Below are positions 6,301 through 19,963 of a stretch of DNA of 22,032 nt, one piece after another. Source of the stretch: a virus; IMG/VR virus record IMGVR_UViG_3300046808_000928, positions 1 to 22,032 of that record; one strand, written 5' to 3'. The notes under the pieces are model-generated. The model was not told the origin of the DNA. It saw only the letters and a program-made list of their open reading frames with translations, and searched no databases. The translations under genes and the position numbers were made by a program. Every line of letters begins with the position of its first letter. Within the stretch, counting starts at the first letter, position 1.

Positions 6301-9300
6301 TATCGGATGCAAATGATTGGAATCCTCTACCTGCCTGTGTTCTATTGTTTCTTTGTGCAACATCCAAATAATCTTTACCGGTTGGATTTCTTGTCAATCC
6401 AAAGTAATTTATAGTTGGTGCACTTGTTCTGTTACCAATCCAAGTAAATCTTGATGATTCGGTTTTATATTTTGTTTCTTCGTTTTCTCTGGCAAATTTA
6501 TGGAAACCACTCGTTGTATTTTTATTTGATAAATCAAAATAATTAACAGTTGGTGCCTCTTCTTTACCACCTGTGAAAGTTAAGAATGATGTTTCCCAAT
6601 TATATTCAGTTATAGGTCTTCCACTTCCCTTTGGCATAATATCCAAAGTAAATCCAGTTTGATTGTCATCTGGAAAGAAATTAGTTGGTGATGGTCTTGT
6701 TCCTGCAAATGTAAACCTTGATGATTCTGTTTTATATTCAGTTTCAGGATTACTTGCACCTTTTGCCATTATATCAAGTGTGAATCCACCTTGATTATCA
6801 TCTGCGAAGAAATTAACAGGTGATGGTCTTCCACCAGTAAATCCATAGAAAGATGATTCGTGTAGATATTCAGATTCAGGAATACCAGCATTTCTTTTTA
6901 TGTTTTGTGAGAACCCAACTGCATTTGTATCTTGAAACCAATTTGCTCCTTCACCTGGAAACTGACCAACAAATCCGTAAAGTGATGTTTCGTGTAAATA
7001 TTCCGTATCTGGATTACTTGAACCCTTTGGCATTATATTAAGAGTAAATCCTGGAGCATTTAGATTTTCAAAATAATTTACGCCTTTTGCTGGGAATTGT
7101 CCTTTGAATGTAAATTCAGATGAGTCTTTTACATATTTACTATCAAGTTTTTCAGCAAGTTGATGGAAACCAACAGTGGTAAATTTTCCAGATATATCAA
7201 AGTAATTAACTTCAGGAGCAGATCCTCTTCCACCATCCCAATCATATTGTGATGATTCTTTTACATATTTTGAATCCAACATCTGTGCAAGTCTGTGGAA
7301 TCCAACAGTTGTATGTTTACCAGATATATCGAAGTAATTAACTTCTGGAGCAGCACTTCTACCACCATCCCAATCAAATTCAGAAGATTCTTTTATGTAC
7401 TTACTATCATACTTCTGAGCAAATGTGTGGAAACCAACGGTTGTAAATTTTCCAGTTAAATCAAAGTAATTTACAGCAGGAGCAGAACTTCTACCGCCAT
7501 TCCAATCAAACTCGGATGATTCTGGAATATATTTTGAATCATATTTTTCTGCAAATGTGTGGAATCCAACAGTGGTAAATTTTCCAGTTAAGTCAAAATA
7601 ATTTACAGACGGTGCAGAAACACGAGCACCATTCCAATCGAATTCAGAAGACTCTGGAATATATTTTGAATCTAACTTAGCAGCAAATGTATGGAATCCA
7701 ACAGTTGTATGTTTACCAGTTAAGTCAAAGTAATTGACAGCAGGAGCAGAATCTTTTTTTCCATCCCAATCGAAGTCAGATGAATCTGGAATATATTTTG
7801 AATCTCTCAATACTGCAAATGAATGGAATCCAACGGTTGTGTGTTTGCCAGTCAAATCAAAATAGTTTACAGTTGGTACATCAGACTTACCACCATCCCA
7901 ATTGAATATGGATGCATCCTTTATGTATTTTGAATCGTATGTCTGTGCAAAAGAATGAAATCCAGCACTTGTACTTTGACCTGATAAATCAAAATAGTTT
8001 ACAACTGGAGCAGATTCTTTACCACCATCCCAATCGAATACAGATGAACCTTGAACATATTTTGATTCGTATGTTTGTGCAAATGTATTAAATCCAGCAT
8101 TAGTATTTGTTGAATCTAAGTCAAAATAATTTACAGCAGGTGCAGATGCAGGATTACCTTTCCATGTAAATTCAGACACATCTTTTTTATACTTTGAATC
8201 ATATTTTTGAGCAAACGGATGAAATCCATCGGTTGTATATTGTTTTAACAAATCGAAATAATTTACAGCAGGTGCATTCTCTACTGAATTACCATCCCAA
8301 TCAAATCTTGAAGAATCTGGAATATATGAAGATGCTAAGAATTGACTAAATGTTTGAAATCCTTGTGATGTATGTTCACCCAATAAATCTAAATAATTTA
8401 CTCCAGGAGCTGCTTGTTTATTTCCAGACCAAACAAATTCGGATGCATCCGGAATATATTTAGAATCACCCCTAACAAAAAATTTATTAAATCCACCAGT
8501 TGTTTTCGGTACACCCAAATCAAAATAATTTACTTCTGGAACCGCTTCACGCTTTCCTGGCCAACCAAACCTCGATGAATCTGTTTTAAAGTTTGTTTCC
8601 AACATAGGAGCAAATGTTGTGAACCCATTTGTTGTAACTGTCTTACTAACATCAAAATAATTGACAAAGGGTATTTTTACAAAAGAATATATTGATGTAT
8701 TGTTTTGATATAATGTTTCAGTTGGATCTATAAATAAAGTAAAACCACGACCATTTTTATCCGAGAAGGCATTTGTAAATGGTGCATTTTTTGGTGATCC
8801 AGCCCAAACATATTCGGATTGTCCTGTGAATTGAGTCTCTCCTACTTTTGCATTTCTATTAAAACCTGATGCATTAACATTTGAAAAGAAATCAACTGAT
8901 TGTTGTCCTACAATAGACAATAATGAGTTGGAAGGATTTTCATGTCTTCCACTCAAAACAGTTGGTGTTATACCATCTAAATTCAATTCACTGTTATCGT
9001 TTTCTAATTTACTTAAACCACTATATCGTATTGAATTAATTTCTTGTGTTGGTGTGAGTTTTTCTAATTGAGATGTTCCAACAAATCTTATAGGTCTTAT
9101 ATCTATGTTTAATTGACTTTCATCACCAAAATGATTTGTTCCATTTTCAACCCTCAATATTTTTGTATTAGGATTAACAACCAAACCTTCTTTGATGGTA
9201 TCTGTTATTATATTTGGAGTTTGTTCTGTTCTATCAAATGATAAACTCTTTCTCAATAATGCAATATCTGGATTAATAACATTGTTTATAGGTGAAAGTA

Positions 9301-10132
9301 AGTCTGTGTTAATGATTGCACTTTGACCTTCTCTGTTTATAGATAATGGAATTTTATTTATACGAATATTCGGATTATCTATATTATTAATTTCTTCGTT
9401 AGTGTTTTTAGATATATTTGGTGTTTCATTTTCTCGATTGAAAGACTGTTGCGGTCTTGAAATCTCTACCTTTGGATCAGTTATATTATTAACTGTCTCA
9501 CCTGTTTCTTTCTTTATATCGGGAGTGCTACTTGTTCTATCAAAAGAAAGTGGTCTTGATTGTACATCAATCTGAGATTCCAAGTTGTTTTGTCCAGATA
9601 CGGAACGATTAATCAGTGTTTCAGATGTATTCAATCTACTTTGAAATCCATCTCTACGAATTTCTGAGAATTTTGATGTTACCGTTTCAAGTGGAACTGC
9701 ACTTAATCCATTGGTTTCAATTGGATTAGTTTGAGGTGAATATTGAGAAATTGCATTTACCAATACACTTTCAAATGCTGTTTTTACTATATCATCTTGT
9801 TTAGTTGAATTTAATCTATCTTCAAGTGATTGAGTTTTTGTTGGTTTAACTATATCATCGAGTTTAGTAGAACCCAATCTTGTTTCAATTGGTTTATTGG
9901 TTGTAGGTTTTTGTATATCATCTAATCTTGATTTACCGAGTTTACTTGTTACACTAACAGGAGTTGGTTTTACTATATCGGGAGCATTATTTAATAATCC
10001 ATCTGTAATTGGTTGATTTACTGCAAAATTTTTGCTATTAGTTGCAATAGAAGAATTAGGAGTTAATTTATTATCCTTCGCAACCTCTGAACGATATTTT
10101 GATAAATCAGATTTTAAATCCACTAATGACAT
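3359..10132 (-). CDS. Giant repetitive baseplate/tail protein with tube-initiator-like C-terminal domain
   Basis: At 2257 residues this is the largest gene in the window. Layout: residues 51-118, four short DDIVKPT-type repeats about 21 apart; residues 194-327, four units of about 33-34 residues with (L)SFDR and TPNI motifs; residues 413-1245, about 20 units of about 44 residues built on VNYFDL...GFHTFA...DSKY...SSEFDWDG; residues 1260-1950, non-repetitive; residues about 1957-2150, a domain containing NYMGRGDPIYTFGSYERDVS, WRKLNYLASWTAPEY and PGFINSLSYT. That last pattern is one I associate with tail-tube-like initiator/baseplate cap proteins (gp48/gp54 type). The tail end is Gly/Thr-rich. 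ATG is preceded by CAGGAA (9 nt gap) and by an ATATTTAT motif 24 nt upstream. It lies between tape measure and LysM genes, where T4 has its tube-initiator genes. The repeats' function is unknown; a fibre or collar structure anchored to the baseplate is an inference. Confidence 0.8.
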   Translation of the reverse strand: MSLVDLKSDLSKYRSEVAKDNKLTPNSSIATNSKNFAVNQPITDGLLNNAPDIVKPTPVSVTSKLGKSRLDDIQKPTTNKPIETRLGSTKLDDIVKPTKTQSLEDRLNSTKQDDIVKTAFESVLVNAISQYSPQTNPIETNGLSAVPLETVTSKFSEIRRDGFQSRLNTSETLINRSVSGQNNLESQIDVQSRPLSFDRTSSTPDIKKETGETVNNITDPKVEISRPQQSFNRENETPNISKNTNEEINNIDNPNIRINKIPLSINREGQSAIINTDLLSPINNVINPDIALLRKSLSFDRTEQTPNIITDTIKEGLVVNPNTKILRVENGTNHFGDESQLNIDIRPIRFVGTSQLEKLTPTQEINSIRYSGLSKLENDNSELNLDGITPTVLSGRHENPSNSLLSIVGQQSVDFFSNVNASGFNRNAKVGETQFTGQSEYVWAGSPKNAPFTNAFSDKNGRGFTLFIDPTETLYQNNTSIYSFVKIPFVNYFDVSKTVTTNGFTTFAPMLETNFKTDSSRFGWPGKREAVPEVNYFDLGVPKTTGGFNKFFVRGDSKYIPDASEFVWSGNKQAAPGVNYLDLLGEHTSQGFQTFSQFLASSYIPDSSRFDWDGNSVENAPAVNYFDLLKQYTTDGFHPFAQKYDSKYKKDVSEFTWKGNPASAPAVNYFDLDSTNTNAGFNTFAQTYESKYVQGSSVFDWDGGKESAPVVNYFDLSGQSTSAGFHSFAQTYDSKYIKDASIFNWDGGKSDVPTVNYFDLTGKHTTVGFHSFAVLRDSKYIPDSSDFDWDGKKDSAPAVNYFDLTGKHTTVGFHTFAAKLDSKYIPESSEFDWNGARVSAPSVNYFDLTGKFTTVGFHTFAEKYDSKYIPESSEFDWNGGRSSAPAVNYFDLTGKFTTVGFHTFAQKYDSKYIKESSEFDWDGGRSAAPEVNYFDISGKHTTVGFHRLAQMLDSKYVKESSQYDWDGGRGSAPEVNYFDISGKFTTVGFHQLAEKLDSKYVKDSSEFTFKGQFPAKGVNYFENLNAPGFTLNIMPKGSSNPDTEYLHETSLYGFVGQFPGEGANWFQDTNAVGFSQNIKRNAGIPESEYLHESSFYGFTGGRPSPVNFFADDNQGGFTLDIMAKGASNPETEYKTESSRFTFAGTRPSPTNFFPDDNQTGFTLDIMPKGSGRPITEYNWETSFLTFTGGKEEAPTVNYFDLSNKNTTSGFHKFARENEETKYKTESSRFTWIGNRTSAPTINYFGLTRNPTGKDYLDVAQRNNRTQAGRGFQSFASDKTVTNYASAYSILSTESGTNKSIALDKPVTNFFGYTLSTRKGFLPKMSQNDGTLYPIINPGLSYNASLSDRYAIQSARSAGGLTTSNGEEFAPLSLGKRPWANGTLFATLENQVPSIKMKSAPGSYLNKYERTMKDTGLNGSYLARWSMDGQLDTQYGKYSLLDASYNKDTPNQPFVLRGIQEKGNFENETFGDNKSLLSNIKEADVKRISGWLNSNKGQRWVELQDRLYKLNPFVDYNPNDSATANNNQPINRLFNKSSLISTIENIDGGLRLLKVRHGEDSTNDPSDSSTNRYENTTLALNPAGDETNWKIPRTDIPTESNRYAYPYNRLVALVGELLPSTLIPVNSKTNGKYKEPSINSKIVRLSGTNGPNSGKNVSETVINRSSHPYLGIYNTAAVLPSQYPSTAKREIFYGALTRDAGGGEIDSRYSFRINNTFTVTTQNKVDGMLSALSYLLGGAKARNDENGTYTGDVDIQTSTLDFLKKPEATPFDPRYISFNDRLRAKSKDLFTPANKILERTPTEEKPIDAPHKQYSSVAYSKLARVKKGAGDRSNEYNDFRHDLFNAENTDPNKEVVPGFFSSDPKVIRYHKYNLDINHGFGKQGEPGNQKNLPFKSNVIYQDKNGTPTPKLKSGQGYKFRGDRINIIDFKKNKTGWVDNNYVYELGSNSDSNLPGAEDLVSFYFTSAKIKGGGKGAPAEAIVFRAAFDSITDNHKPSWSPVNYMGRGDPIYTFGSYERDVSFGFTVHIGSRDEMKASWRKLNYLASWTAPEYTTGGFIKAPLCRLNIGHLFRKTPGFINSLSYTFDNVGGTWETSQLKEDFDLAGASKNISSPGVLQLPKTIQVSCGFTVIGVYRPERNTYMYPLYDDDLAGTPNGIAPTSNTVVNYFRTFDEGGGDQDEFVAVPLGAEDVPVTQRPQTTKDLQDEAKKQNATADKEIGAIISTDGTDKEPEGTDTGGGGATGGGATGGGTGTNAGGG
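6398..8896 (-). repeat. About 20 tandem ~132-bp coding repeats (VNYFD units)
   Basis: Residues 413-1245 of the 2257-residue protein are about 20 head-to-tail units. The [V/T/I]N-F anchors fall at residues 413, 453, 490, 534, 578, 623, 667, 711, 755, 799, 843, 887, 931, 975, 1018, 1064, 1106, 1150, 1196 and 1241, so the period is 44 with small deviations. Units starting at 755-975 are nearly identical (units at 843 and 887 differ at 5 of 44 residues), while flanking units diverge. Units at 1018-1150 form a second subtype with GFTLDIM in place of GFHTFA. Conserved positions are mostly aromatic (NYF, GFH, KY, FDW). Confidence 0.92.
9152..9553 (-). repeat. Four ~33-residue N-terminal repeats (SFDR/TPNI units)
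   Basis: Residues 194-327 of the 2257-residue protein contain four units with the anchors PLSFDRTSSTPDI, QQSFNRENETPNI, PLSINREGQSAII and SLSFDRTEQTPNI. Each is followed by a NN-I-(D/N)P-(K/N/D) stretch (TDPKVEISR, DNPNIRINK, NPDIALLR, NPNTKILR). They are polar, Asn/Thr-rich and more diverged than the 44-residue units. Their meaning is unknown; an extended, repetitive binding strand is one possibility. Confidence 0.8.
9779..9982 (-). repeat. Short DDIVKPT repeats at the N-terminus
   Basis: Residues 51-118 of the 2257-residue protein carry PDIVKPT, DDIQKPT, DDIVKPT and DDIVKT at a spacing of about 21, with R/K-L-x-S-(T/R)-K/L preceding the last three. This resembles a chain of short linear motifs rather than a folded domain. 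Confidence 0.8.
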
Positions 10133-10155: not shown

Positions 10156-10163
10156 ATAAATAT
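10156..10163 (-). promoter_or_regulatory. ATATTTAT leader motif upstream of the giant repeat gene
   Basis: The octamer ATATTTAT on the sense (minus) strand ends 23 nt before the ATG at 10132. It lies at the centre of a perfect 6-bp inverted repeat, GTTTCA/TGAAAC (arms 10164-10169 and 10149-10154). It is the last copy in the transcription direction, so if it is a promoter it would drive the repeat protein, LysM, hub and 216-residue genes together. Promoter function is inferred from recurrence. Confidence 0.55.
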
Positions 10164-10179
10164 TGAAACGATAGATTTA

Positions 10180-13100
10180 TTAAACTTTGCGTCCATAAGA
10201 ATTATCTATTCCAACATTATATGAATTTTTTAGATTAATTGTAGACTTTATTTCATCTATTACTCTATCACCAAACTTAATAACAGTTGGTTGATTTGCC
10301 GCAGAATTTATTGCATTTATAAGTGCATCCAATCTTGCCTCAACACCAGACATATTAACAGTTGAACCACCAGCACCGCCAGCTCCACCGGCTCCACCTG
10401 CTTGAGTTGCTCCCATTGGAGATTCGCCCATAGTTGATTGTTGCATTGGAGAGAATCCTTTTTCTCCAGATTCTTGTGATTCACCACCACCAAATAGACT
10501 ACCAAGCGCACCACCGACTGAACCCATAATTCCAGAAGCAGCTGATCCCAATCCACCGGCAACACTACCAATTACACCACCGATAGATTCTGCCATTTTT
10601 TGAAGTGGTTCTAATGCTGCACTCAATTTTGCGTCTATACTTTGTAGTACCAATAATTCAGGTGATTCTGTTTGTTCTCCACCACCTCCACCACCCATAG
10701 CATCCATTGCCGCACCAACTTGTTGTGTTGCACTCGCGTTAGCAACAACTGAACCTTGTGGTAGTGATACAACTTCTGGACCGTTTTCACCAACTAATGT
10801 TGCACCACCTTTTTTAATTATACCACCGGTAGCAGCTGCACCCATCATTTGAACTTCTTGTTTAAGTCCTTCTGCATCACCATCCATTGCCAATTGTTGA
10901 GCACGAGATCCGTCTGGATAATCTTTTGGATTCATGGAAACACCGCCACCTGCACCTTCACCACCTGCTGATTTTTGTAGATAAGCTGCAGCAGCTCCTG
11001 CTGCACCCCCACCGGCTTTTGCGGTTGCTGGTTTTGTTCCTCCTGCACCCTTTGTTTCTTCCGCTTTTTTCTCTGTTTCTTCTTCACCACCACCAAATAT
11101 ATCAAGAACTCCAGAAACTTTGTCAGTAATACTTGTTATAGAACCCATGAAATTATCAAACAACCCTTTTACTAAATCAAATGGTGCCATAATAAAATCT
11201 TTTATACCATTACCCATGGTTTCAAGACCACCCATGATGTCACCATTGAACATCTGTACCAAACCATCTATTATGTTTGTTACCAAATCAAATGGTGCCA
11301 TTACATAATCTAATACAAGTTTACCTATGTTTTGAATGTATGTACCAATATCACCAAACACACCTGTTGCAAAATCAAAAAACTTAGTTACAGAACCTTT
11401 TAAGTTTGTTCCAAAAATTGAATCTATTGCACCAAAAATTGTTTCATATATCATTTTAGGCAGACCAATGAACAAATCATAGAACATTTTGCCAACACCA
11501 TCTATTGCACCCTTGAAATCTCCGGTAAATAATTTTACAACGGCTCCGATTAAATCGGCAAAAAGTGTAATTGGTGTAACAAGTAATGTTGCAATTATAT
11601 TACCAACCGCAGTTATTACAGGTTGTAGTTTTTCAAATATACCCTTTATAGTATCCATCGTTCCAGCAGTCTCTTTACCAGATTCTTGTGCAGGGAATAG
11701 TGGTTCAAATGCCTTCTTTACAACATCAAATAAACCAGTGAATGTTGTAAATATTCCTTGAAAAGCCGTCCATAGAGGAGTTACTATTGCAGTCCAGAGT
11801 ATTTTCATAGGAGTGATTAACATACTAATTATTGCAGATCCTAATTGTGTTACAACCCCAAAGACAGATGATATTACATCATTTATTTTTGTAAAAATAT
11901 CTCCAATACCGCCAACACTTCCAGCTCCTGAACTAAATACTGAAAATATTCCTGTTATGAGATCTAATATTGGTGATAATAAACCAAATGCAAGTTTAAA
12001 TGGTTGAACCATTACATTAAAAATTATTTTACCAACACCCATCAATACCTCAACGATAGGAGACAACACAGAAAAGATACCGTCAAAAATACCAACAAGA
12101 CCACCCCCAACTTCCTTTGCATCAAACATAGAATGAACCATGCCAACAATAGGAGCAATTAATTTAGTTGCAGCTTCTTTTATCTTGGTCATAATGTCTT
12201 GTAAGTTTTCTGCCATGGTAGCAGATTCTTTTTCAGCCGCAAGTTTTTCTATGTATGCTTTTTGTTGTGCGTCAGTTGTATTTTTTAATTTTTCAGCAAG
12301 TTGTTCTTGATTCATGTTTTGTAGTTCGGCTATTTTATTAGAATCCAAACCAATATCTCTATACTCTTGTGCCTTGGTAAGCATCTCAGTCATTTCATCA
12401 ACAGACATACCCATAGCATCTGCCATAGATTTCTGTTGAAGTCTGTTCATACTTTGGAATTCGGATAAAGATCCAGCTTGATTCAACAACTCATCTTGCA
12501 ATCCAGCAATATCACCATTTAATGCAAGTTGTCTAGCAGCATCCAAATTCAAATCTCTACCAGTCAATACTCTGGCTTCCATCTCTTTTGCGAGAGATGC
12601 TTCAATATCCAACATACCATCACCGATGTCTTGGACTTTTTTCAAATCCATACCCAACATCTTTGCCTTTTGTGATGCCTTAATAAGTGATTCAGTACCA
12701 CCCTTGAATGCAACAGCAACGGATTTAGGAACATCTGCAAGTGCTTTCATAGCGGCTTTATCGGTCATAAGACCTTTACTCAATCCTTGACTCTTTGATA
12801 CAAGTGAACCCATAGATTCACCGGTTAGTGTTGCAAGTGATTTTATATTACTTATTTCATCTGCACTCATACCGAATTTTTCACTAAGTACGGTTGCATC
12901 TTTAGCAAACTGTTCGAGTTCTTTATTACCACTCTTTATCTGAGAAGCAACATCAAGTCCACCCATGATGTCACTAACGGTTGCCATTCCCTTTACAACT
13001 TCTTGTGTATTGACACCAACTATCCCCATATCCTTTGCCATACCCCTAGCAGCAGATTGTGTCTTTAATGCTTCGTCTTTTGTACCACCTAATGTTTTTT

Positions 13101-14271
13101 GAATTTCTGAAACGGATTTATCAACATCCATAAACGAACCGATGATAAGTCCAACCGCAGCAAGTATAGCAAATATAATAACTTGTGGTCCTGCCATCAG
13201 AGCAGCACCAAATGATTTTGCACCGGCAACAAGAGATTGCATACCGGCCGCACCACCTTGTTGAAATCCAGTAACTACATTTGTTAGAGAATCACCCAAA
13301 TTCTTTTTAAGTGAATCTTGAACTTCATTCAATCCAAGTGCCTTAGTTATTGCAGCACCACCTGGAATTTTTGAAACAGCGGCTTCCATTCCATCAAACA
13401 CACCACCAAGTTTAGTCTGTTCGATAGTACCCCTTATTTTATCGGCGGTCTTTAATATTTTAGCCTGCATTTCTGCATCTTTCATATTTTGACCATTCAT
13501 TTCTTCTTTTGCGTAGTATTGGTCTTGTAGTATTTTTTGTTGTTCTTTTAATACTTCAACTACTTGAAATTGACCTGCGTTCATTGCAGCATCCATTTCT
13601 ATTTTAATTCTTGATAATCCCAATATTTCACGAGATGTATCTAACTCGATAAACTTACCTTGTCTGGCCGCCTTTTCCGCTTCCGCCTTATCAATTATAT
13701 TTTCCAAAACAAGTGCATTCGTACTTGCAAGTTCTCGTGTTGCTCTTAAAAGACCTTCTTGTTCTGCGCCTTCTTCCGAAACAACCTTCTGTAAACTATC
13801 TGCAATATCTAATGCTTCCCTTCTTGCCTTCTGGTATTCTTTGGATGATTTTAGAGTTGAGTCACCGTACTTGTCTATTCTTTCGTATTTTAATTTTAAA
13901 CTTTCAGCAGTGTCACTTGCTTGTTTTTGTATGATTTCGTTCTCTTTTGAAATCTTTGCAGTATTCTTAGTTACTTCTACTATTTTTTGTTGTGCAGCAA
14001 GTTCTTTTTGTTTTAATTCGTCACGCTTCTTATCACTTACTAATTCTTGACCAGTTAGACTTATTATCTGTTTATTGACGCCTTGTCTTTGTTTTTCTAA
14101 ATCTAATGCACGAGACTGAATATCGGCTATCTCTTGAAGATTTATTTTATCTTCACGAGAAAGACCGACCAGTTTATCACGAAGATCGATGAGTTGGCGA
14201 GTAATATCCGCCTCTTGTGCCCTAAGATTTTTAATATCTTCAGCATCTCTTTTATTTATTTCTTCTGCCAT
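10180..14271 (-). CDS. Tail tape measure protein
   Basis: This 1363-residue protein sets tail length and occupies the tube lumen before DNA release. Residues about 1-290 are charged, heptad-rich coiled coil (DIKNLRAQEADITRQLIDLR...). A strongly hydrophobic stretch at about 356-378 (GPQVIIFAILAAVGLIIGSF) and a long amphipathic, aromatic/Ile-rich region at about 700-1010 follow; the latter has internally similar units (TPITLFADLIGAVVKLFTGDF; APFDLVTNIIDGLVQMFNGDI). At about 1147-1178 is GGIIKKGGATLVGENGPEVV followed by SLPQGSVV, a signature I know from many tape measures. The C-terminus is Gly/Ala-rich. It follows the gp26/gp51-like chaperone pair, as expected. At 0.15 nm per residue of helix the protein could span up to roughly 200 nm. 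ATG at 14271 has GAG 5 nt ahead. No terminator is seen after it. Confidence 0.93.
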   Translation of the reverse strand: MAEEINKRDAEDIKNLRAQEADITRQLIDLRDKLVGLSREDKINLQEIADIQSRALDLEKQRQGVNKQIISLTGQELVSDKKRDELKQKELAAQQKIVEVTKNTAKISKENEIIQKQASDTAESLKLKYERIDKYGDSTLKSSKEYQKARREALDIADSLQKVVSEEGAEQEGLLRATRELASTNALVLENIIDKAEAEKAARQGKFIELDTSREILGLSRIKIEMDAAMNAGQFQVVEVLKEQQKILQDQYYAKEEMNGQNMKDAEMQAKILKTADKIRGTIEQTKLGGVFDGMEAAVSKIPGGAAITKALGLNEVQDSLKKNLGDSLTNVVTGFQQGGAAGMQSLVAGAKSFGAALMAGPQVIIFAILAAVGLIIGSFMDVDKSVSEIQKTLGGTKDEALKTQSAARGMAKDMGIVGVNTQEVVKGMATVSDIMGGLDVASQIKSGNKELEQFAKDATVLSEKFGMSADEISNIKSLATLTGESMGSLVSKSQGLSKGLMTDKAAMKALADVPKSVAVAFKGGTESLIKASQKAKMLGMDLKKVQDIGDGMLDIEASLAKEMEARVLTGRDLNLDAARQLALNGDIAGLQDELLNQAGSLSEFQSMNRLQQKSMADAMGMSVDEMTEMLTKAQEYRDIGLDSNKIAELQNMNQEQLAEKLKNTTDAQQKAYIEKLAAEKESATMAENLQDIMTKIKEAATKLIAPIVGMVHSMFDAKEVGGGLVGIFDGIFSVLSPIVEVLMGVGKIIFNVMVQPFKLAFGLLSPILDLITGIFSVFSSGAGSVGGIGDIFTKINDVISSVFGVVTQLGSAIISMLITPMKILWTAIVTPLWTAFQGIFTTFTGLFDVVKKAFEPLFPAQESGKETAGTMDTIKGIFEKLQPVITAVGNIIATLLVTPITLFADLIGAVVKLFTGDFKGAIDGVGKMFYDLFIGLPKMIYETIFGAIDSIFGTNLKGSVTKFFDFATGVFGDIGTYIQNIGKLVLDYVMAPFDLVTNIIDGLVQMFNGDIMGGLETMGNGIKDFIMAPFDLVKGLFDNFMGSITSITDKVSGVLDIFGGGEEETEKKAEETKGAGGTKPATAKAGGGAAGAAAAYLQKSAGGEGAGGGVSMNPKDYPDGSRAQQLAMDGDAEGLKQEVQMMGAAATGGIIKKGGATLVGENGPEVVSLPQGSVVANASATQQVGAAMDAMGGGGGGEQTESPELLVLQSIDAKLSAALEPLQKMAESIGGVIGSVAGGLGSAASGIMGSVGGALGSLFGGGESQESGEKGFSPMQQSTMGESPMGATQAGGAGGAGGAGGSTVNMSGVEARLDALINAINSAANQPTVIKFGDRVIDEIKSTINLKNSYNVGIDNSYGRKV

Positions 14272-14287
14272 AGTCTCATTTTAAAGT

Positions 14288-14321
14288 AAAAAAAAGTCCG
14301 TATAGATAAATATACGGACTT
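14288..14321 (-). terminator. Rho-independent terminator after the gp51-like frame, containing an ATATTTAT motif
   Basis: Perfect 11-bp arms (sense AAGTCCGTATA / TATACGGACTT; 14311-14321 and 14294-14304) enclose a 6-nt loop and are followed by a T run on the sense strand (eight consecutive A on the plus strand, 14288-14295). It begins 3 nt after the TAA of the gp51-like frame (14325-14327), so it would end the chaperone transcript immediately before the tape measure. Confidence 0.85.
14306..14313 (-). promoter_or_regulatory. ATATTTAT leader motif upstream of tape measure, inside a terminator
   Basis: The sense-strand octamer ATATTTAT occupies the loop and the inner end of the upstream arm of the terminator hairpin, ending 34 nt before the tape measure ATG. 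If it is a promoter, one element would both stop the upstream transcript and start the next. Confidence 0.55.
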
Positions 14322-14324
14322 GAA

Positions 14325-14567
14325 TTATTTCGGTGAGAAGGTAGGCATACTTCGTCTTTGTTTTGATTGAACATTATCTTGATGCCTTTTATTTTGTTCT
14401 TCTATTCTTTTGGTTATTTGTTTTATGTAAAATCGTCTAAGATGTATGGGAAGACTATAAACTTCATCCCATGTAAATCCACCTTGACCATAATAACACA
14501 AATTAAATATTTCCTCGTGTAGACCTATTTTATAGTTAAGTCCCAGGCCAAAAAAATGATACCCCAA
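14325..14567 (-). CDS. gp51-like tail assembly chaperone C-terminal frame, probably reached by frameshift
   Basis: This 80-codon open frame overlaps the last 32 nt of the gp26-like gene. Its readable core (LHEEIFNLCYYGQGGFTWDEVY followed by SLPIHLRRFYIKQI) matches the pattern I know for the small gp51-like protein next to gp26 in T4-superfamily phages: an aromatic GFT-(W/Y)-x-x-VY-x-(L/M)P-x-HLR-x-FY block. It has no ATG before the core; the only early start is TTG at 14567 without convincing Shine-Dalgarno spacing. The relation to the upstream frame is +1 (equivalently -2). This is the classic arrangement of a tail chaperone made as a short form and a frameshifted long form (about 358 residues here) directly before the tape measure. 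An indel error in the sequence at the T run would also explain it. Confidence 0.72.
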   Translation of the reverse strand: MGYHFFGLGLNYKIGLHEEIFNLCYYGQGGFTWDEVYSLPIHLRRFYIKQITKRIEEQNKRHQDNVQSKQRRSMPTFSPK

Positions 14568-15402
14568 TCGGTATATCCATCTCCTTCACCTCACCGGTTG
14601 CTTCCGATATAAATGTGTATGTCAAATCCAGGTCAGGTGAAATTGATTTGATATACTGTCTAAGTGCTCTTGAATCTGCAGCAAATAGCTCATTATCTAC
14701 AAAATTGTTTATAACAGTTCTACCTGTTTCACCATCAACCGCAATAATAAGATGTTTGAGTCTTGTTGTAAGTTCTTTATCAATTCCGGTTTTAACCAAT
14801 GTCTTATTCATGGATTTTAGTTCGGCTTGAACTTCTTTTTCCAATCCATGTGTCATTAGTCTAAATGTAACTACTCGTTTGGATGTAGGTAACTCAAAGT
14901 CAAATTCATTTTTTCCTGCCTCAAATAAGCTATAATCGACCTCCTTGTGCTCGATTTGAGTTAAATCTATTGTTACTTTTTGTTTTGTTCCAGGAGAAAA
15001 TGGATCATCCACTTCTACAACATAATCCTTACCGTACCCCAATATTCGAGCAGCAACCATAATTGCATTTTTATCACCAACATACAAGTCATTATAGTTT
15101 ATTGGCGTTACAATCAAAGACTCAAACAATTTATCTAATACTACACCTTGTTTAATAAGATTTTGTGATGTTAAAATATCTTCTTCTCGTGCAGTCATAT
15201 ATTTCATTTCTATCACACCAGATGAGAGTACATTTTCTGGAGTGTAAATATATCCCTTTGAAGGCAAGGGAACTATTTCAGTTGGAAAGTTTGTCTTCTT
15301 TACATCAGTCTGTTTGTGTTGGGAAAGCAATTGTGCTTTAAGGTCTGCATCCGAAACTGCGTGTTCCGATGGCAATTCATAACCTGTTGGAATTTTTGTC
15401 AT
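14536..15402 (-). CDS. gp26: gp26-like baseplate hub assembly / tail assembly chaperone
   Basis: This 288-residue protein belongs, by pattern, to the T4 gp26-type family (baseplate hub assembly; tape measure chaperone). The landmarks are LPSKGYIY at 46-53, EMKYMTAREEDILTS at 65-79, GVVLDKLFESLI at 86-97, YVGDKNAIMVAARILGYG at 107-124 and a C-terminal helical part (about 195-250). The family usually has a cysteine-containing stretch after the RI-x-YG element; here that place reads VDDPFSPGTK, with no cysteines. ATG at 15402 is preceded by TAGGAAAATAAGTT, a good AGGA signal. An ATATTTAT motif lies 49 nt upstream. The gene overlaps the gp51-like frame by 32 nt, and the tape measure follows, matching the standard chaperone position. 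Confidence 0.82.
   Translation of the reverse strand: MTKIPTGYELPSEHAVSDADLKAQLLSQHKQTDVKKTNFPTEIVPLPSKGYIYTPENVLSSGVIEMKYMTAREEDILTSQNLIKQGVVLDKLFESLIVTPINYNDLYVGDKNAIMVAARILGYGKDYVVEVDDPFSPGTKQKVTIDLTQIEHKEVDYSLFEAGKNEFDFELPTSKRVVTFRLMTHGLEKEVQAELKSMNKTLVKTGIDKELTTRLKHLIIAVDGETGRTVINNFVDNELFAADSRALRQYIKSISPDLDLTYTFISEATGEVKEMDIPIGVSFFWPGT
14550..14556 (-). promoter_or_regulatory. Seven-T slippery run, candidate frameshift site
   Basis: On the sense strand the gp26-like frame reads TCA TTT TTT TGG CCT GGG ACT TAA. The run of seven T covers codons 283-284 and the first base of 285. Slipping +1 (or -2) here joins the frame to GGC CTG GGA..., the gp51-like core. A GGGG lies about 9 nt upstream. 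A weak downstream pairing, GGCCU with AGGUC across an 18-nt loop, is possible. A -1 shift can be excluded because it meets TAG after a few codons. Confidence 0.55.
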
Positions 15403-15451
15403 AACTTATTTTCCTATAACAATTTGTAATAAAACATTTTTAAATACATTA

Positions 15452-15459
15452 ATAAATAT
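15452..15459 (-). promoter_or_regulatory. ATATTTAT leader motif upstream of the gp26-like gene
   Basis: Sense-strand context is ACCATATTTATTAATG. The motif ends 49 nt before the ATG at 15402, the longest spacing of the seven copies, and lies just after the dehydratase stop codon. Confidence 0.55.
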
Positions 15460-15475
15460 GGTAAAATGAAAAAAT

Positions 15476-16444
15476 CTAAACTGATTTCTTATACCAATCA
15501 ATCGTGGATTTCAAACCATCTTCAAAATTTATAAGTGGTTTCCATCCTAATTTTTCTTGTGCCTTAGTTGAATCTACGGCATATCTTCTATCGTGTCCTA
15601 ATCTATCTTCAATATAGTTTATTAAATCTTTCGATTTTCCCATCGTTGATAATAATAATTTTACTATATCTATATTTTTCCATTCATTATCCGAACCGAT
15701 GTTATAAACTTCACCATTCTTTCCCCATTCATAAGCAAACCAAACTGCTCTACAATGGTCATCAACATGAATCCAATCACGAACATTTAGTCCATCACCA
15801 TAAATTGGCAGTTCTTTACCTTTCAATATGTTTGTTATCATTAGTGGTATCAATTTTTCGGTATGTTGTCTTGGTCCATAGTTGTTTGAACAACGAGTTA
15901 TGACTGTTGGGACACCGTAAGTGTGATAGTATGACCTAACAAAACAATCGGCAGATGCTTTTGCCGCTGAGTACGGTGAGTTTGGTAGAATTCGTGAGTG
16001 TTCGTTGAACTTTTCGGTAGAATTTAATTCTAAACTACCATAAACTTCGTCAGTAGATACTTGAACGAACTTTTTTATCCCCAAATCTTTAGCAACGGTC
16101 AAAAGTGAAACAGTTCCTACTATGTTTGTGTCTATAAATGGTTTTCCATCTACAATTGACCTATCTACATGAGATTCCGCAGCAAAATTTATTATACCTT
16201 CAACATCATGGTTAATACAAATCTCTTTAATTAGTTCTGTATTACAGATGTCTGCGTGATAAAATAAATAATCTTCATTATCTGAGAATTCTTCTACATT
16301 TTTTGGATTTCCAGCATAGGTTAGTAAGTCTACATTCACAATTCTGATATTCGATAGGGGTATGCCCAACATCATGTGAATAAAGTTACTACCAATAAAA
16401 CCACAACCACCTGTTACGAGGATAGTTCTTTTTTGATTTGACAT
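15476..16444 (-). CDS. rmlB: dTDP-glucose 4,6-dehydratase (RmlB/RfbB family)
   Basis: This is an extended short-chain dehydrogenase of 322 residues that converts dTDP-glucose to dTDP-4-keto-6-deoxyglucose, the branch point to rhamnose and other deoxysugars. Visible motifs: the NAD-binding GGCGFIG at residues 12-18, the STDEVYG catalytic block (Thr-Asp-Glu) near 126-132, YSAAKASAD (catalytic Tyr and Lys) near 157-165, then NNYGPRQHTEKLIP and the RDWIHVDDHCRA substrate-domain segment. Length and motifs are those of a complete enzyme. I chose the ATG at 16444: a TTG three codons upstream has AGGG only about 3 nt ahead, too close, whereas the ATG has it about 12 nt ahead. No partner genes (rmlA, C, D) are in the window. 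It lies between tail tube and chaperone genes as a single-gene unit with a leader motif on each side, which looks like inserted metabolic cargo. A related nucleotide-sugar dehydratase specificity cannot be excluded. Confidence 0.93.
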   Translation of the reverse strand: MSNQKRTILVTGGCGFIGSNFIHMMLGIPLSNIRIVNVDLLTYAGNPKNVEEFSDNEDYLFYHADICNTELIKEICINHDVEGIINFAAESHVDRSIVDGKPFIDTNIVGTVSLLTVAKDLGIKKFVQVSTDEVYGSLELNSTEKFNEHSRILPNSPYSAAKASADCFVRSYYHTYGVPTVITRCSNNYGPRQHTEKLIPLMITNILKGKELPIYGDGLNVRDWIHVDDHCRAVWFAYEWGKNGEVYNIGSDNEWKNIDIVKLLLSTMGKSKDLINYIEDRLGHDRRYAVDSTKAQEKLGWKPLINFEDGLKSTIDWYKKSV

Positions 16445-16481
16445 ATAAAACAAAACCCTACATTCATTGACATTACTGCCA

Positions 16482-16489
16482 ATAAATAT
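16482..16489 (-). promoter_or_regulatory. ATATTTAT leader motif upstream of the dehydratase
   Basis: Sense-strand context is CCCTATATTTATTGGC. The motif ends 37 nt before the ATG at 16444. The cargo gene therefore carries the same leader signal as the virion genes. Confidence 0.55.
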
Positions 16490-16529
16490 AGGGAATTTTT
16501 CGTAAACAATACTTTTGTATAATAAAAAA

Positions 16530-17018
16530 TTAGTATTGAAGTATTGCGTAATCGTATGCCAATGTCAATGAAATCTCAACAAACGCATCGTTTGCCCAAT
16601 CCATGTCACCGAATGTTGTTGCAGTGATGAAAGCACCTTTGATAGTCCATTCTTCAACTTTATCACCAACAGGTCCTAAGATGTGAAGTGTTAAATCTTT
16701 CTTATAGAAGTCAGAGTAACCATCACGACCAGTTACAGATTCATGTGATAGACGAACCCATTCCATAACTGCCTGAGCAGCGGAAGGAACAATAGGATCG
16801 TACAATTTAATTGTAATATCTTGCCATTCACCTTTACCCTTAACTTTTCGTTTAACATTGATATGGTCAAGTGTAATAGGATTGAAGCTGATATTTGGGC
16901 GTCCAGAACCTTTTACCAAGAAAGCCGGAACACCTTCGATATACAAAATAAATCGGTTTTGTAACTTTGGCTCAAACGGGGTAAAAAAGATTTCCGTGGG
17001 ATCAAGTAATTCAGCCAT
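16530..17018 (-). CDS. gp19: Tail tube protein (gp19-like)
   Basis: The 162-residue length is almost that of T4 gp19 (163). It polymerises into the inner tail tube through which DNA passes. The sequence shows the family layout: N-terminal DPTEIFFTPFEPKLQNRFIL, the central GSGRPNISFNPITLDHINVK with a basic RKVKGKGEW turn, LYDPIVPSAAQAVMEWVR, and the C-terminal ISLTLAYDYAILQY. ATG at 17018 is preceded by TTTGGAGATATAA, a strong GGAG signal. It follows the sheath gene, as in T4. In T4 the next gene is the portal; here it is the dehydratase. A bidirectional terminator separates it from the sheath, and an ATATTTAT motif lies between terminator and start. Confidence 0.95.
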   Translation of the reverse strand: MAELLDPTEIFFTPFEPKLQNRFILYIEGVPAFLVKGSGRPNISFNPITLDHINVKRKVKGKGEWQDITIKLYDPIVPSAAQAVMEWVRLSHESVTGRDGYSDFYKKDLTLHILGPVGDKVEEWTIKGAFITATTFGDMDWANDAFVEISLTLAYDYAILQY

Positions 17019-17050
17019 TTATATCTCCAAATTAAAAATTATCGTTTCAA

Positions 17051-17058
17051 ATAAATAT
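17051..17058 (-). promoter_or_regulatory. ATATTTAT leader motif upstream of the tail tube gene
   Basis: Sense-strand context is GATTATATTTATTTGAAAC, ending 32 nt before the ATG at 17018. It lies just downstream of the sheath terminator, which is where a new transcript would be expected to start. The TTTATnTGAAAC flank is shared with the copy at 10156. Confidence 0.6.
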
Positions 17059-17067
17059 AATCATTTC

Positions 17068-17098
17068 AAAAAAAGTGGGGAGAGTATTTCATCTCCCC
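17068..17098 (-). terminator. Rho-independent terminator between sheath and tube genes
   Basis: On the sense strand, GGGGAGA (17092-17098) and TCTCCCC (17077-17083) form a 7-bp stem with an 8-nt loop. AC and then seven T (17068-17074) follow. It starts 13 nt after the sheath TAA (17112-17114). A six-A run precedes the stem, so the element could also terminate plus-strand transcription. Confidence 0.88.
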
Positions 17099-17111
17099 TT
17101 TTTTATTTCAA

Positions 17112-19550
17112 TTAAGCACCTGGGAACGCAGCACCTGTGTTTTGAATGTTGAAGTCAAGAATGATGAATTCAGCAGTCTTAGCAGGTTGCAAGAACAATT
17201 GACCGTAAAGTATGTTTCTATCAATGATGTCAGGTGTATTGTTACTTTCATCCATGATAACACGGAAAGCATATAAACCTTGGCGTTGTTGAATTGATTC
17301 AAGATATGGTGTCACGATGTTCAAGAAGCGAGTTCTTGTTTGTGATGTGTTTTGTTCAAACACAAGGTATCTTGTAGAAGAAGCAATAAACTTCTTAGCA
17401 GCAATCAACAGACGGCGAACATTGATACGGTCAAGAGCAGATGGACGACCTTGAAGTGTCTTTTGACCCCATACACATACTCCAGTTGCAGGGAATACTG
17501 CGATAGGATTAATTCTTGCCTCATACAATGTATCTCTTTCTGCCTGAGTAAGTCTTGATTTAACTTCAACAACTTCTGTCAGACCACCACGATTCAAACC
17601 AGCAGGAGCGAACCATTCAGCAGACACACGGTCATTGAATGCAATCACACCAGGAAGAACAACAGATGGTGGAACCCAAATTGGTTTGTTTCTGTCCATA
17701 TCAAGAATCTTAACCCAAGGATAATAAGTTGCAGCGTAGTTACTATCAAACCCTTCGGTTGTAGAAACAGCAGTTGCAATATTATCATTGATACCAACAG
17801 CATCCATTACATAGAAAGCGTCACCGCGATCCTCACAAACATCTTTAGCGTATGATGTAACTGCAGAGTGCAATGAATGAATTATACCAGGAGTTGAAAC
17901 CATATTAATATCGAATTCATCTGCATTTGATATTGTATCAAGTGCCTTCTTATATGAAGTATATCCATCAGCAGTTGTAGATGAAATATCGAATCCTTGT
18001 GTATTACCGGCTTCAATATGTGTACCTGTTTTCTTTTGGAGATTTGGTTTGTGACCATCAAATCCACCTTGGAAAGGCACCATGAACTTACGAGAATCCA
18101 ATGCAGTGTTTGTTGTCAAATCGATAGATGCACTGTAAGCACCGGCGGATGATGGGAAACTTGCACCAGGATTTTGGTTATAATCACCAAGATAGAAATC
18201 TACATTACTTCCTGTTGTTTGATTTGCAGTGATTGGCAATGGACGAAGATAATTGAAGTTATCGGTATTTGAGAAATCATAAGAGAATCCCCAATATACT
18301 CGTCTATTGTAAGCACCACCGGCTGTTTGGTCTGCAATATAAGTAGCAGCAGCAGGTTGTGTGAATGCACTTGGTATAGGTGATTTAGGAGCACGGAAAC
18401 CAAAAGGTACTAAGTTTGGAGATACACCACCGTTTGCAACGGCTTCTGTTACTTCAACACGAATATATTTTGATTTGTTAGAATAATCACCGTTTACAAC
18501 AACTTTACCAGCATCTGTTACAGTGATATATCTATCACCAATAACTCTTGTAATATACTTAGGTGAATTAGGATCAAGACTACACTTGAATGATTCTACT
18601 ACATTTGGACGCAAATCTTCATCTTCATAAGTGAATGGTGTTTGTGGAAGTTTAGATTGATCAACAAATCTAACAACAACATCAAAGTCACCATACTCAG
18701 AACCAGCAATTGTTCCAGCAGCACGAATATTTGCAATACCAACTTTTACTTCATAGTTTGAATGAATACCATGAGAAAGAGTATGGAATTTAAACAAATC
18801 GGAAGATATTGAACCAACTTTTTGTGAAGTGATCCATGGTGTAGATGCTTCAAGATAATCAGTTGTGAAATCCCAAGGTGAACCTGCTGAACCTGTTTCA
18901 ATCAAAATAGTAGTTGCACCGTCTGCAGCAATAGAAGCAGATGCCTGTTGTTTGAAATTAACATAGTTGTAAACAGCGTGTGTACCGTAAGGATTATATC
19001 CGTATAAGTCACCAATATATGATGTAGAATCTGGATTGATAGAAGCACTAAATGCAAGTCCGTTTTCACTTGTAGCATTTGTAAATGAGGATACATCTGT
19101 TGTAAATCCACCAGATACAGTAAGAACAAAACTACCACTCTTATTAGAAGCAACAGTAGTGTTTGCAAACAATGAAGTTGCATCTGTATTTGTTACAACG
19201 AAAGTTGGGTGTAAGAACGAAATTAATTTTTTACCCCATGAACCTGTTGCAACGATAGCAATTGGATGCTTCAATGAATATCCACCTGAACCAAGAACAC
19301 GCACGATAGTTGCACTACCAGCGTTATTCAAATAATTTTTTGCAGTATATGGTAAGTACGAATGTTCATAAGTACCACCAAACTTAGTTACAAAGTCACC
19401 ATAACCTTCTACAACAGTTGGTACGAAGGCGGGTCCTTTAAGCGTTGGTCCTACGAGAGCCGCACCGATTGCACCAATTCCTTGTGGAAGGAACGATAGA
19501 TCCAATTCATTGGTAAACACTCCAGGACTTACAATTCTTTCATTAGCCAC
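17112..19550 (-). CDS. gp18: Contractile tail sheath protein (gp18-like)
   Basis: This 812-residue protein forms the contracting outer tail. The N-terminus (residues 1-95) has the typical sheath pattern: SPGVFTNELDLSFLP, AIGAALVGPTLKGPAFVP, FGGTYEHSYLPYTAKNYLNN. The C-terminal domain (about 570-812) is also typical: NRGGLTEVVEVKSRLTQAER, GVCVWGQKTLQ, RINVRRLLIAAKKFI, then ILYGQLFLQPAKTAEFIILDF. The middle (about 110-560) is variable and makes it longer than T4 gp18 (659 residues), so extra surface domains are likely. The start is GTG at 19550 with GGAG 8 nt ahead; there is no nearby in-frame ATG. It has its own leader motif upstream and a terminator downstream, consistent with a monocistronic, highly expressed transcript. 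Confidence 0.95.
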   Translation of the reverse strand: MANERIVSPGVFTNELDLSFLPQGIGAIGAALVGPTLKGPAFVPTVVEGYGDFVTKFGGTYEHSYLPYTAKNYLNNAGSATIVRVLGSGGYSLKHPIAIVATGSWGKKLISFLHPTFVVTNTDATSLFANTTVASNKSGSFVLTVSGGFTTDVSSFTNATSENGLAFSASINPDSTSYIGDLYGYNPYGTHAVYNYVNFKQQASASIAADGATTILIETGSAGSPWDFTTDYLEASTPWITSQKVGSISSDLFKFHTLSHGIHSNYEVKVGIANIRAAGTIAGSEYGDFDVVVRFVDQSKLPQTPFTYEDEDLRPNVVESFKCSLDPNSPKYITRVIGDRYITVTDAGKVVVNGDYSNKSKYIRVEVTEAVANGGVSPNLVPFGFRAPKSPIPSAFTQPAAATYIADQTAGGAYNRRVYWGFSYDFSNTDNFNYLRPLPITANQTTGSNVDFYLGDYNQNPGASFPSSAGAYSASIDLTTNTALDSRKFMVPFQGGFDGHKPNLQKKTGTHIEAGNTQGFDISSTTADGYTSYKKALDTISNADEFDINMVSTPGIIHSLHSAVTSYAKDVCEDRGDAFYVMDAVGINDNIATAVSTTEGFDSNYAATYYPWVKILDMDRNKPIWVPPSVVLPGVIAFNDRVSAEWFAPAGLNRGGLTEVVEVKSRLTQAERDTLYEARINPIAVFPATGVCVWGQKTLQGRPSALDRINVRRLLIAAKKFIASSTRYLVFEQNTSQTRTRFLNIVTPYLESIQQRQGLYAFRVIMDESNNTPDIIDRNILYGQLFLQPAKTAEFIILDFNIQNTGAAFPGA

Positions 19551-19596
19551 TATTTATCTCCAGTATAAATTTATAGATATAGAATTTCTTCTACAC

Positions 19597-19604
19597 ATAA
19601 ATAT
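19597..19604 (-). promoter_or_regulatory. ATATTTAT leader motif upstream of the sheath gene
   Basis: Sense-strand context is AATTCATATTTATGTG, ending 46 nt before the GTG at 19550 and starting 17 nt after the stop of the 98-residue gene. No strong terminator precedes it; a GAATT/AATTC pairing lies just upstream but lacks a T run. Confidence 0.55.
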
Positions 19605-19621
19605 GAATTAAAAATTCCAAA

Positions 19622-19918
19622 CTATGATGCCGAAGGAATAAATTTACCAGAATCTAAATCTAAAACACCGTCTCCATATTTTTCGTTAAGTGACTTAACT
19701 AAATCGGATTCTTGTTTTTGTAAATCATTGTATTTGGTAAACAAACTCTCTCTCAACTCACGCATTTGGTCCAATCTCTTATTCAATAAATGCAATTCAA
19801 TTTCAACTTGCCCAATCTGTGCAGTTGTTGTAGCATAACTTGATTGAAGATCTTTCACTGTAACAATATCTTCTTGTGAAAATTCTTGTTCTGTAATTGT
19901 TTTAGCATTCTCTGCCAT
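19622..19918 (-). CDS. Small coiled-coil protein between tail terminator and sheath genes
   Basis: This 98-residue acidic protein has no membrane segment. Residues about 28-80 form a nearly uninterrupted heptad pattern (QIGQVEIELHLLNKRLDQMR, then ELRESLFTKYNDLQ), so it is very likely a helical coiled coil, ending in a short GDGVLDLDSGKF tail. GAGG lies 9 nt before the ATG, and the gene has its own leader motif. In T4 this place between gp15 and gp18 holds the terminase genes; here only this small gene is present. The function is unknown. An assembly chaperone, scaffold or minor virion protein would all fit its position among the tail genes. Confidence 0.85.
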   Translation of the reverse strand: MAENAKTITEQEFSQEDIVTVKDLQSSYATTTAQIGQVEIELHLLNKRLDQMRELRESLFTKYNDLQKQESDLVKSLNEKYGDGVLDLDSGKFIPSAS

Positions 19919-19955
19919 AATAAAACCTCATTTAAAAAATTAAAAAATAACACTT

Positions 19956-19963
19956 ATAAATAT
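19956..19963 (-). promoter_or_regulatory. ATATTTAT leader motif upstream of the coiled-coil gene
   Basis: Sense-strand context is TGATATTTATAAG; the first base of the octamer is the last base of the TGA stop of the 334-residue gene. It ends 37 nt before the ATG at 19918. In the transcription direction this is the first copy in the window. Confidence 0.55.

Follow-up and report, generated by a model that had tools for sequence, protein, structure and literature searches.

The best-described system with which the locus studied here can be compared is the late promoter of bacteriophage T4, an 8-bp box, TATAAATA, placed about one helical turn before the transcription start and without conservation at -35 (PMC2988020). 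Lineage variants of this promoter exist within the T4 family; in Aeromonas phage Aeh1, for example, the box reads a/gC at -13/-12 (PMC2988020). For the Far-T4 phages, that is RM378 and its uncultivated relatives, a survey from 2015 detected no T4 core genes for transcription regulation (PMC4360716); both a promoter and a candidate sigma factor for these phages are proposed here.

The window, by which we mean the whole stretch of DNA analysed, is an IMG/VR virus record of 22,032 bases that has no larger assembly. Its recognised genes lie on the minus strand and encode a contractile tail, with a sheath, a tube, a baseplate-hub-like protein and a tape measure. By tail tube sequence its nearest named phages are Mel-JY01 (85% identity), Flavobacterium phage immuto (59%) and RM378 (41%), and on this protein comparison the window belongs to the Far-T4 group. 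The octamer ATATTTAT, with TATTTAT as its core and most often an A after it, is present in seven exact copies, all on the minus strand, which is the coding strand of every gene, and is absent from the plus strand. We read it as a probable sense-oriented late-promoter variant of the T4 type without a -35 box, and put the probability of this reading at roughly 80%. The features are as follows (all on the minus strand; distances run from the end of the octamer to the start codon, as read from the sequence):

19956-19963, minus strand: putative late-promoter core, exact octamer, 37 nt, in the leader of a 98-aa gene (19622-19918); it overlaps the last base of the upstream stop codon
19597-19604, minus strand: putative late-promoter core, exact octamer, 46 nt, in the leader of the tail sheath gene; conserved in the sheath leaders of relatives
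17112-19550, minus strand: tail sheath gene, gp18-like (phrog_23, E 1.4e-72)
17077-17098, minus strand: intrinsic terminator of the sheath gene, GGGGAGATGAAATACTCTCCCC and then a T-run, directly upstream of the octamer in the tube leader
17051-17058, minus strand: putative late-promoter core, exact octamer, 32 nt, in the leader of the tail tube gene; conserved in the tube leaders of relatives
16530-17018, minus strand: tail tube gene, gp19-like (phrog_4542, E 3.6e-27), the gene 85% identical to its Mel-JY01 counterpart
16482-16489, minus strand: putative late-promoter core, exact octamer, 37 nt as counted to the ATG at 16444 and not to the upstream TTG, in the leader of a nucleotide-sugar epimerase gene (15476-16444)
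16456-16493, minus strand: terminator-like hairpin of 17 pairs with a loop of 4, followed by TTTTGTTTT; its 5' arm contains the octamer at 16482
15452-15459, minus strand: putative late-promoter core, exact octamer, 49 nt, in the leader of the baseplate-hub-like gene (14536-15402); also found at Mel-JY01 gene 35136
14306-14313, minus strand: putative late-promoter core, exact octamer, 34 nt, in the leader of the tape-measure gene (10180-14271)
14294-14321, minus strand: terminator hairpin AAGTCCGTATA-tttatc-TATACGGACTT and T-run, with the core nested in the loop and upper stem
10156-10163, minus strand: putative late-promoter core, exact octamer, 23 nt, in the leader of a 2257-aa gene (3359-10132)

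The counterpart of the first of these cores in Mel-JY01 lies at the equivalent place upstream of the sheath gene, before a 104-aa gene (31641-31955). The epimerase gene, which has its own octamer and terminator-like hairpin, is located between the tube and hub genes and is absent from that place in Mel-JY01; it is probably a late-expressed insert. The 2257-aa gene gave no family match, its middle part visibly consists of repeated units, and Mel-JY01 has a gene of similar size.

A first-pass annotation of the same DNA had reported seven octamers in sense orientation, each in a leader and 23-49 nt before a start codon, and exact matches were obtained at all seven positions. It had also called the pattern strongly non-random, which is borne out by the placement, the total count itself not being unusual: 3.97 copies are expected on both strands of DNA this AT-rich and at least seven occurred in 11 of 100 shuffles, whereas sense leaders, which hold 7/7 copies, make up 2.4% of the window (binomial P 4e-14). 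Dinucleotide-shuffled window leaders contained a mean of 0.23 and a maximum of 2 copies in 300 shuffles, and the AT-richness of leaders is therefore insufficient to explain the placement. Within the window no copy is found inside a gene or in antisense orientation. The earlier statement that genes lack the octamer is thus correct for the window, but it does not extend beyond it, since in Mel-JY01 61 of 90 copies are in genes, the level that chance predicts. For the same reason, commonness inside genes, which had been suggested as grounds for refutation, is a poor test, and density and orientation are informative instead.

As in T4, where late transcription depends on gp55, gp33, gp45 and RNA polymerase, there is a single 8-bp AT box without a -35 box, the leader is short and one box precedes each virion operon, sheath and tube included. 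As a control, TATAAATA in T4 was found to end 14-28 nt before genes 53, 9, 18, 19, 20, 22, 24 and 51; genes 18 and 19, which have late promoters, are the homologues of the sheath and tube genes of the window. The TATTTAT sites share with the T4-type late promoter the lack of a conserved -35 region and a sense position at a short distance before virion genes. The start codons are somewhat further away than in T4, mostly 31-38 nt as against 14-28 nt, and the core reads central TT where T4 has AA. The Aeh1-type promoters likewise carry a lineage-specific change inside the same octamer, although there the first two bases are changed and here the two central ones. The TATAAATA class allows at most minor deviations and the sense core here is TATTTAT(A), so that the octamer is outside that class by sequence, yet it appears to work like it as far as sequence tells.

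The first-pass annotation had advised looking for the motif in related genomes, and there it is conserved. Scans of viral contigs with the sheath and tube as queries returned about 600 stretches each. Among distinct tube leaders ATATTTA was present in sense orientation in 99 of 106 and in antisense orientation in 2, most of the copies ending 31-38 nt before the start codon; among distinct sheath leaders the figures were 76 of 96 and 10. Before both genes the octamer is kept while the flanking sequence diverges, and in pooled relatives sense copies outnumber antisense ones by 383 to 4 and by 241 to 9 (redundant counts). A prior-free motif search on the sheath leaders returned [CT]ATATTTATA, with core positions near 100% in rows that are related sequences, and with C (0.41) or T (0.38) most often preceding ATATTTAT. 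The same kind of search on the tube leaders found a conserved upstream terminator and not the octamer, an artefact of relatedness, and when run on the full set of Mel-JY01 leaders it returned the early promoter as its first motif. At the level of whole genomes, the leaders of both Mel-JY01 (190 kb, of which leaders are 3.2%) and immuto contain 21 sense copies and 1 antisense copy; for immuto the placement rests on the antisense and binomial controls. The leaders of the Mel-JY01 capsid and sheath genes, among other virion genes, have no exact octamer. TATTTAT leaders are not enriched in RM378, and none were found in the tail region of the 484-kb phage LR756508. A motif search in RM378 gave TTTAAATAA, which is perhaps that phage's own box. 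Nothing relevant was found in the literature on a phage promoter with the sequence TATTTATA or ATATTTAT. The octamer is common to a large, little-studied group of T4-like viruses.

TATTTAT leaders are concentrated in the virion modules, where they account for 16 of 29 leaders in Mel-JY01 (4 of 65 elsewhere) and 21 of 32 in immuto (10 of 64 elsewhere), giving Fisher values of 4e-7 and 2e-6 with module borders that were drawn by hand from the annotation after the motif list had been seen. The leaders of small early-type genes carry other sites, TTG-N20-TAnnTTTG at 17 places in Mel-JY01, which matches the Bacteroidota housekeeping promoter, and TTG-N20-TATATTTAG at 29 places in immuto, which resembles it. 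With two leader classes of this kind, the octamer stands apart from promoters of the host type, and the division is consistent with an early/late switch. Three further observations concern the early leaders and their hosts. Between 60 and 77 kb of immuto (L006:10988-26900) many small early genes have a common long leader, TTG-N20-TATATTTAGGTATCAATAATTAA, which far exceeds the length needed for a promoter. In the early leaders of Mel-JY01 (L002-L003) a repeated AACAACCTAACAGGAACACTACG directly precedes the start codons of many small genes. Mel-JY01 (PP395634) was deposited as a Microcystis elabens phage, its early leaders are of the Bacteroidota type and its relatives infect Flavobacterium and Rhodothermus; the actual host may be a bacterium of the Bacteroidota that was present in that culture.

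These data also bear on the alternative that survives best, improbable as we consider it, namely that the octamer is a promoter for the host housekeeping sigma factor, of the Escherichia coli type (TATAAT) or the Bacteroidota type (TAnnTTTG), rather than for a phage late sigma factor. The octamer core shares its AT-richness with the Bacteroidota promoter, early genes of the nearest complete relatives do use such sites, TATATTTAG is present in immuto early leaders, and TATATTTA, which contains the first seven bases of the octamer, also resembles TAnnTTT. However, the T before ATATTTAT is not fixed, and TATTTAT shows no variation at its A and last T, the positions at which TAnnTTTG has T and G. 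Unlike the octamer, the Bacteroidota promoter consists of two boxes, and genuine TAnnTTTG or TATATTTAG sites have their TTG at exactly N20, an arrangement that is missing from TATTTAT leaders: in the 25 and 32 TATTTAT sites examined, no recurrent or fixed spacing of an upstream TTG was found, and the pattern of a Bacteroidota sigmaA site, TAnnTTTG with TTG about 20 nt upstream, is not seen at the octamers. A scan of the window for TTGACA-N16-18-TATAAT gave no excess over shuffles and no site at the coding-strand octamers. Moreover, the motif class belongs to virion and not to early leaders.

A second alternative, slightly less probable still, is that the octamer acts in the leader RNA as a signal for processing, stability or translation, an option that the first-pass annotation had raised and that its constant transcribed orientation at a short distance before start codons would suit. 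It is disfavoured by the terminators. In two window leaders, those of the tape-measure and epimerase genes, the core lies inside terminator-like hairpins and would be hidden in a run-on transcript, and several leaders have a terminator directly upstream, where a promoter would be needed. Ahead of the tape-measure gene, or ahead of a small gene where one is inserted before it, the octamer is located within an intrinsic terminator, in its loop and the upper part of its stem (z -6.8 for the window hairpin). Such nested terminators numbered 37 among 978 distinct TATTTAT contexts and 0 among 469 ATAAATA contexts. Across 34 distinct sequences of the tape-measure hairpin 98.7% of cells are paired, a value biased upward because hairpin formation was the reason for including most of the sequences; 6 of its 11 pairs change on both sides, and pairing in slid controls is 18-52%. 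The same hairpin is present in an independently compiled list of tape-measure leaders, namely in the octamer-bearing leaders of the close group. In 36 tape-measure leader sequences the octamer does not change at all, whereas the stem beneath varies and covaries, which indicates that the octamer is kept for a reason other than pairing. Furthermore, early genes do not carry the same motif.

The first-pass annotation had described the octamer as the reverse complement of the T4-type core. This is literally true but misleading, since TATAAATA and its complement TATTTATA share TAT..ATA and differ only at the two central bases; because TAT..ATA is self-complementary, sense TATTTATA is equally the T4 box with two bases changed, central AA having become TT, and is read in the same direction. 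Of the explanations then offered, a promoter of different sequence is supported and a different polarity is not, no change of polarity being needed for a box that is nearly palindromic outside its centre; the spacing suits a sense promoter. We regard as very unlikely the further suggestion that the element is an antisense late promoter, with NATAAATA on the other strand. The opposite strand does read ATAAATA, the cyanophage and T4 consensus, but this similarity is forced by the near-palindrome. At almost all virion genes such a promoter would direct transcription into the 3' end of the preceding gene, and the spacing of the octamer is tied to the downstream start codon, as fits a sense promoter. 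Sense TATAAATA is rare in leaders, with 2 copies in Mel-JY01 and 7 in immuto as against 12 and 24 of TATTTATA, and shows no enrichment in sense leaders of the window or Mel-JY01. Least probable of all is a role as the target of a DNA-binding regulator or as a mark for replication or recombination: although the function of the octamer is deduced from position, its strict orientation, its fixed range of distances to start codons and its restart position after terminators are properties of promoters, and late promoters occupy the corresponding position before the homologous T4 genes 18 and 19.

The advice to look for a gp55-like factor proved productive in that it led to a conserved candidate family, although the similarity to gp55 is weak. 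A gp55 profile searched against immuto matched gp118 (78174-78872) weakly (E 0.008). Homologues of gp118 are encoded in Mel-JY01 (158764-159534, phmmer 2.4e-38), in contigs G001 (E 5e-73; its sheath is 85% identical to that of the window), G005 and G006, and in hundreds of contigs besides. The family consists of conserved proteins of 230-256 aa with a conserved, helical C-terminal part; in a profile-profile comparison the first 110 residues gave an end-to-end alignment with gp55 (E 0.0013, with a probability of only 19%), the score being 29.1 and that of the best of 201 decoys 26.5. The PHROG matched by the largest number of members (7 of 18) is that of a late sigma factor; the individual PHROG matches are at 0.03-0.4 and the best single E-value belongs to an unknown PHROG. 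Foldseek searches with predicted full-length and N-terminal models placed several sigma factors among the top matches, none significant, and a PDB sequence search gave nothing relevant. Searches of the relatives for canonical gp55 (phrog_234), Sigma70_r2 and phrog_1740, the annotated sigma factor of RM378, gave no strong matches except in RM378 itself. A scan with the Mel-JY01 homologue as query returned no relatives, the exact peptide patterns probably being too strict. By these sequence comparisons the gp118 family is a good candidate for the sigma factor of the octamer, clearly less certain than the promoter function itself. It would differ from T4 gp55 as a separate, longer family, and a gp33-like role for its C-terminal part is speculation.

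Besides its annotated ECF-like sigma factor, RM378 has a distant relative of the candidate (17032-17826), and LR756508 (L315) encodes a relative with 40% identity; both phages have the related protein without TATTTAT leaders, and the protein and the motif are therefore not always paired. Two other factors were considered and rejected: the ECF-like sigma factor of RM378 as late sigma factor, as it has no homologue in Mel-JY01 or immuto, and a phage multisubunit RNA polymerase as reader of the promoter, as the four records tested contain no such gene. Homologues of the sliding clamp are present in Mel-JY01, where the gene adjoins that of the DNA polymerase, and in three contigs; a clamp homologue together with a weakly gp55-like protein is a further resemblance to T4.

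The placement, orientation, conservation and concentration in virion leaders of the element are observed, as are the lack of a recurrent upstream TTG box and the covarying hairpin; its promoter function, its start sites, the identity of the sigma factor and the dependence on the clamp are proposed. According to this proposal, ATATTTAT would serve a Far-T4-type phage as a late promoter with a single box; it would be read in gene direction and take the place of TATAAATA at about -13 to -6, with TT for the central AA and no -35/-33 box. Late in infection it would be recognised by the host RNA polymerase with a phage-encoded gp55-like sigma factor, with the sliding clamp as the probable activator. 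Start sites would lie some 5-8 nt downstream of ATATTTAT, and a short leader, of a few nt to about 40 nt, would be produced for every virion gene or operon. An operon upstream may end in a terminator, in which case transcription would be restarted by the promoter just after that terminator; at the tape-measure gene the restart would occur from inside the hairpin and give a new transcript without the hairpin. In its widest form the proposal is tentative, and we consider it rather doubtful as a whole: Far-T4 phages would have a late-transcription system of their own, in which TATTTATA is read by a new family of late sigma factors whose N-terminal domain is gp55-like and whose conserved helical C-terminal domain might take on the job of gp33 within one chain, and in which some late promoters are nested in the upstream terminator hairpin, termination and restart sharing one element.

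What is proposed here is a two-base variant of the T4 late promoter in distant T4-like phages. Relatives of the window phage are common in public viral contigs, and the 2015 survey of Far-T4 phages left their expression programme open (PMC4360716). With a probable late-promoter core and a named sigma candidate, the expression of Far-T4 genes could be tested directly in Flavobacterium phage immuto, which is in culture, and operons could be called in hundreds of uncultured contigs. The system may also offer a natural case in which a late sigma factor and its promoter have changed together at two base pairs.
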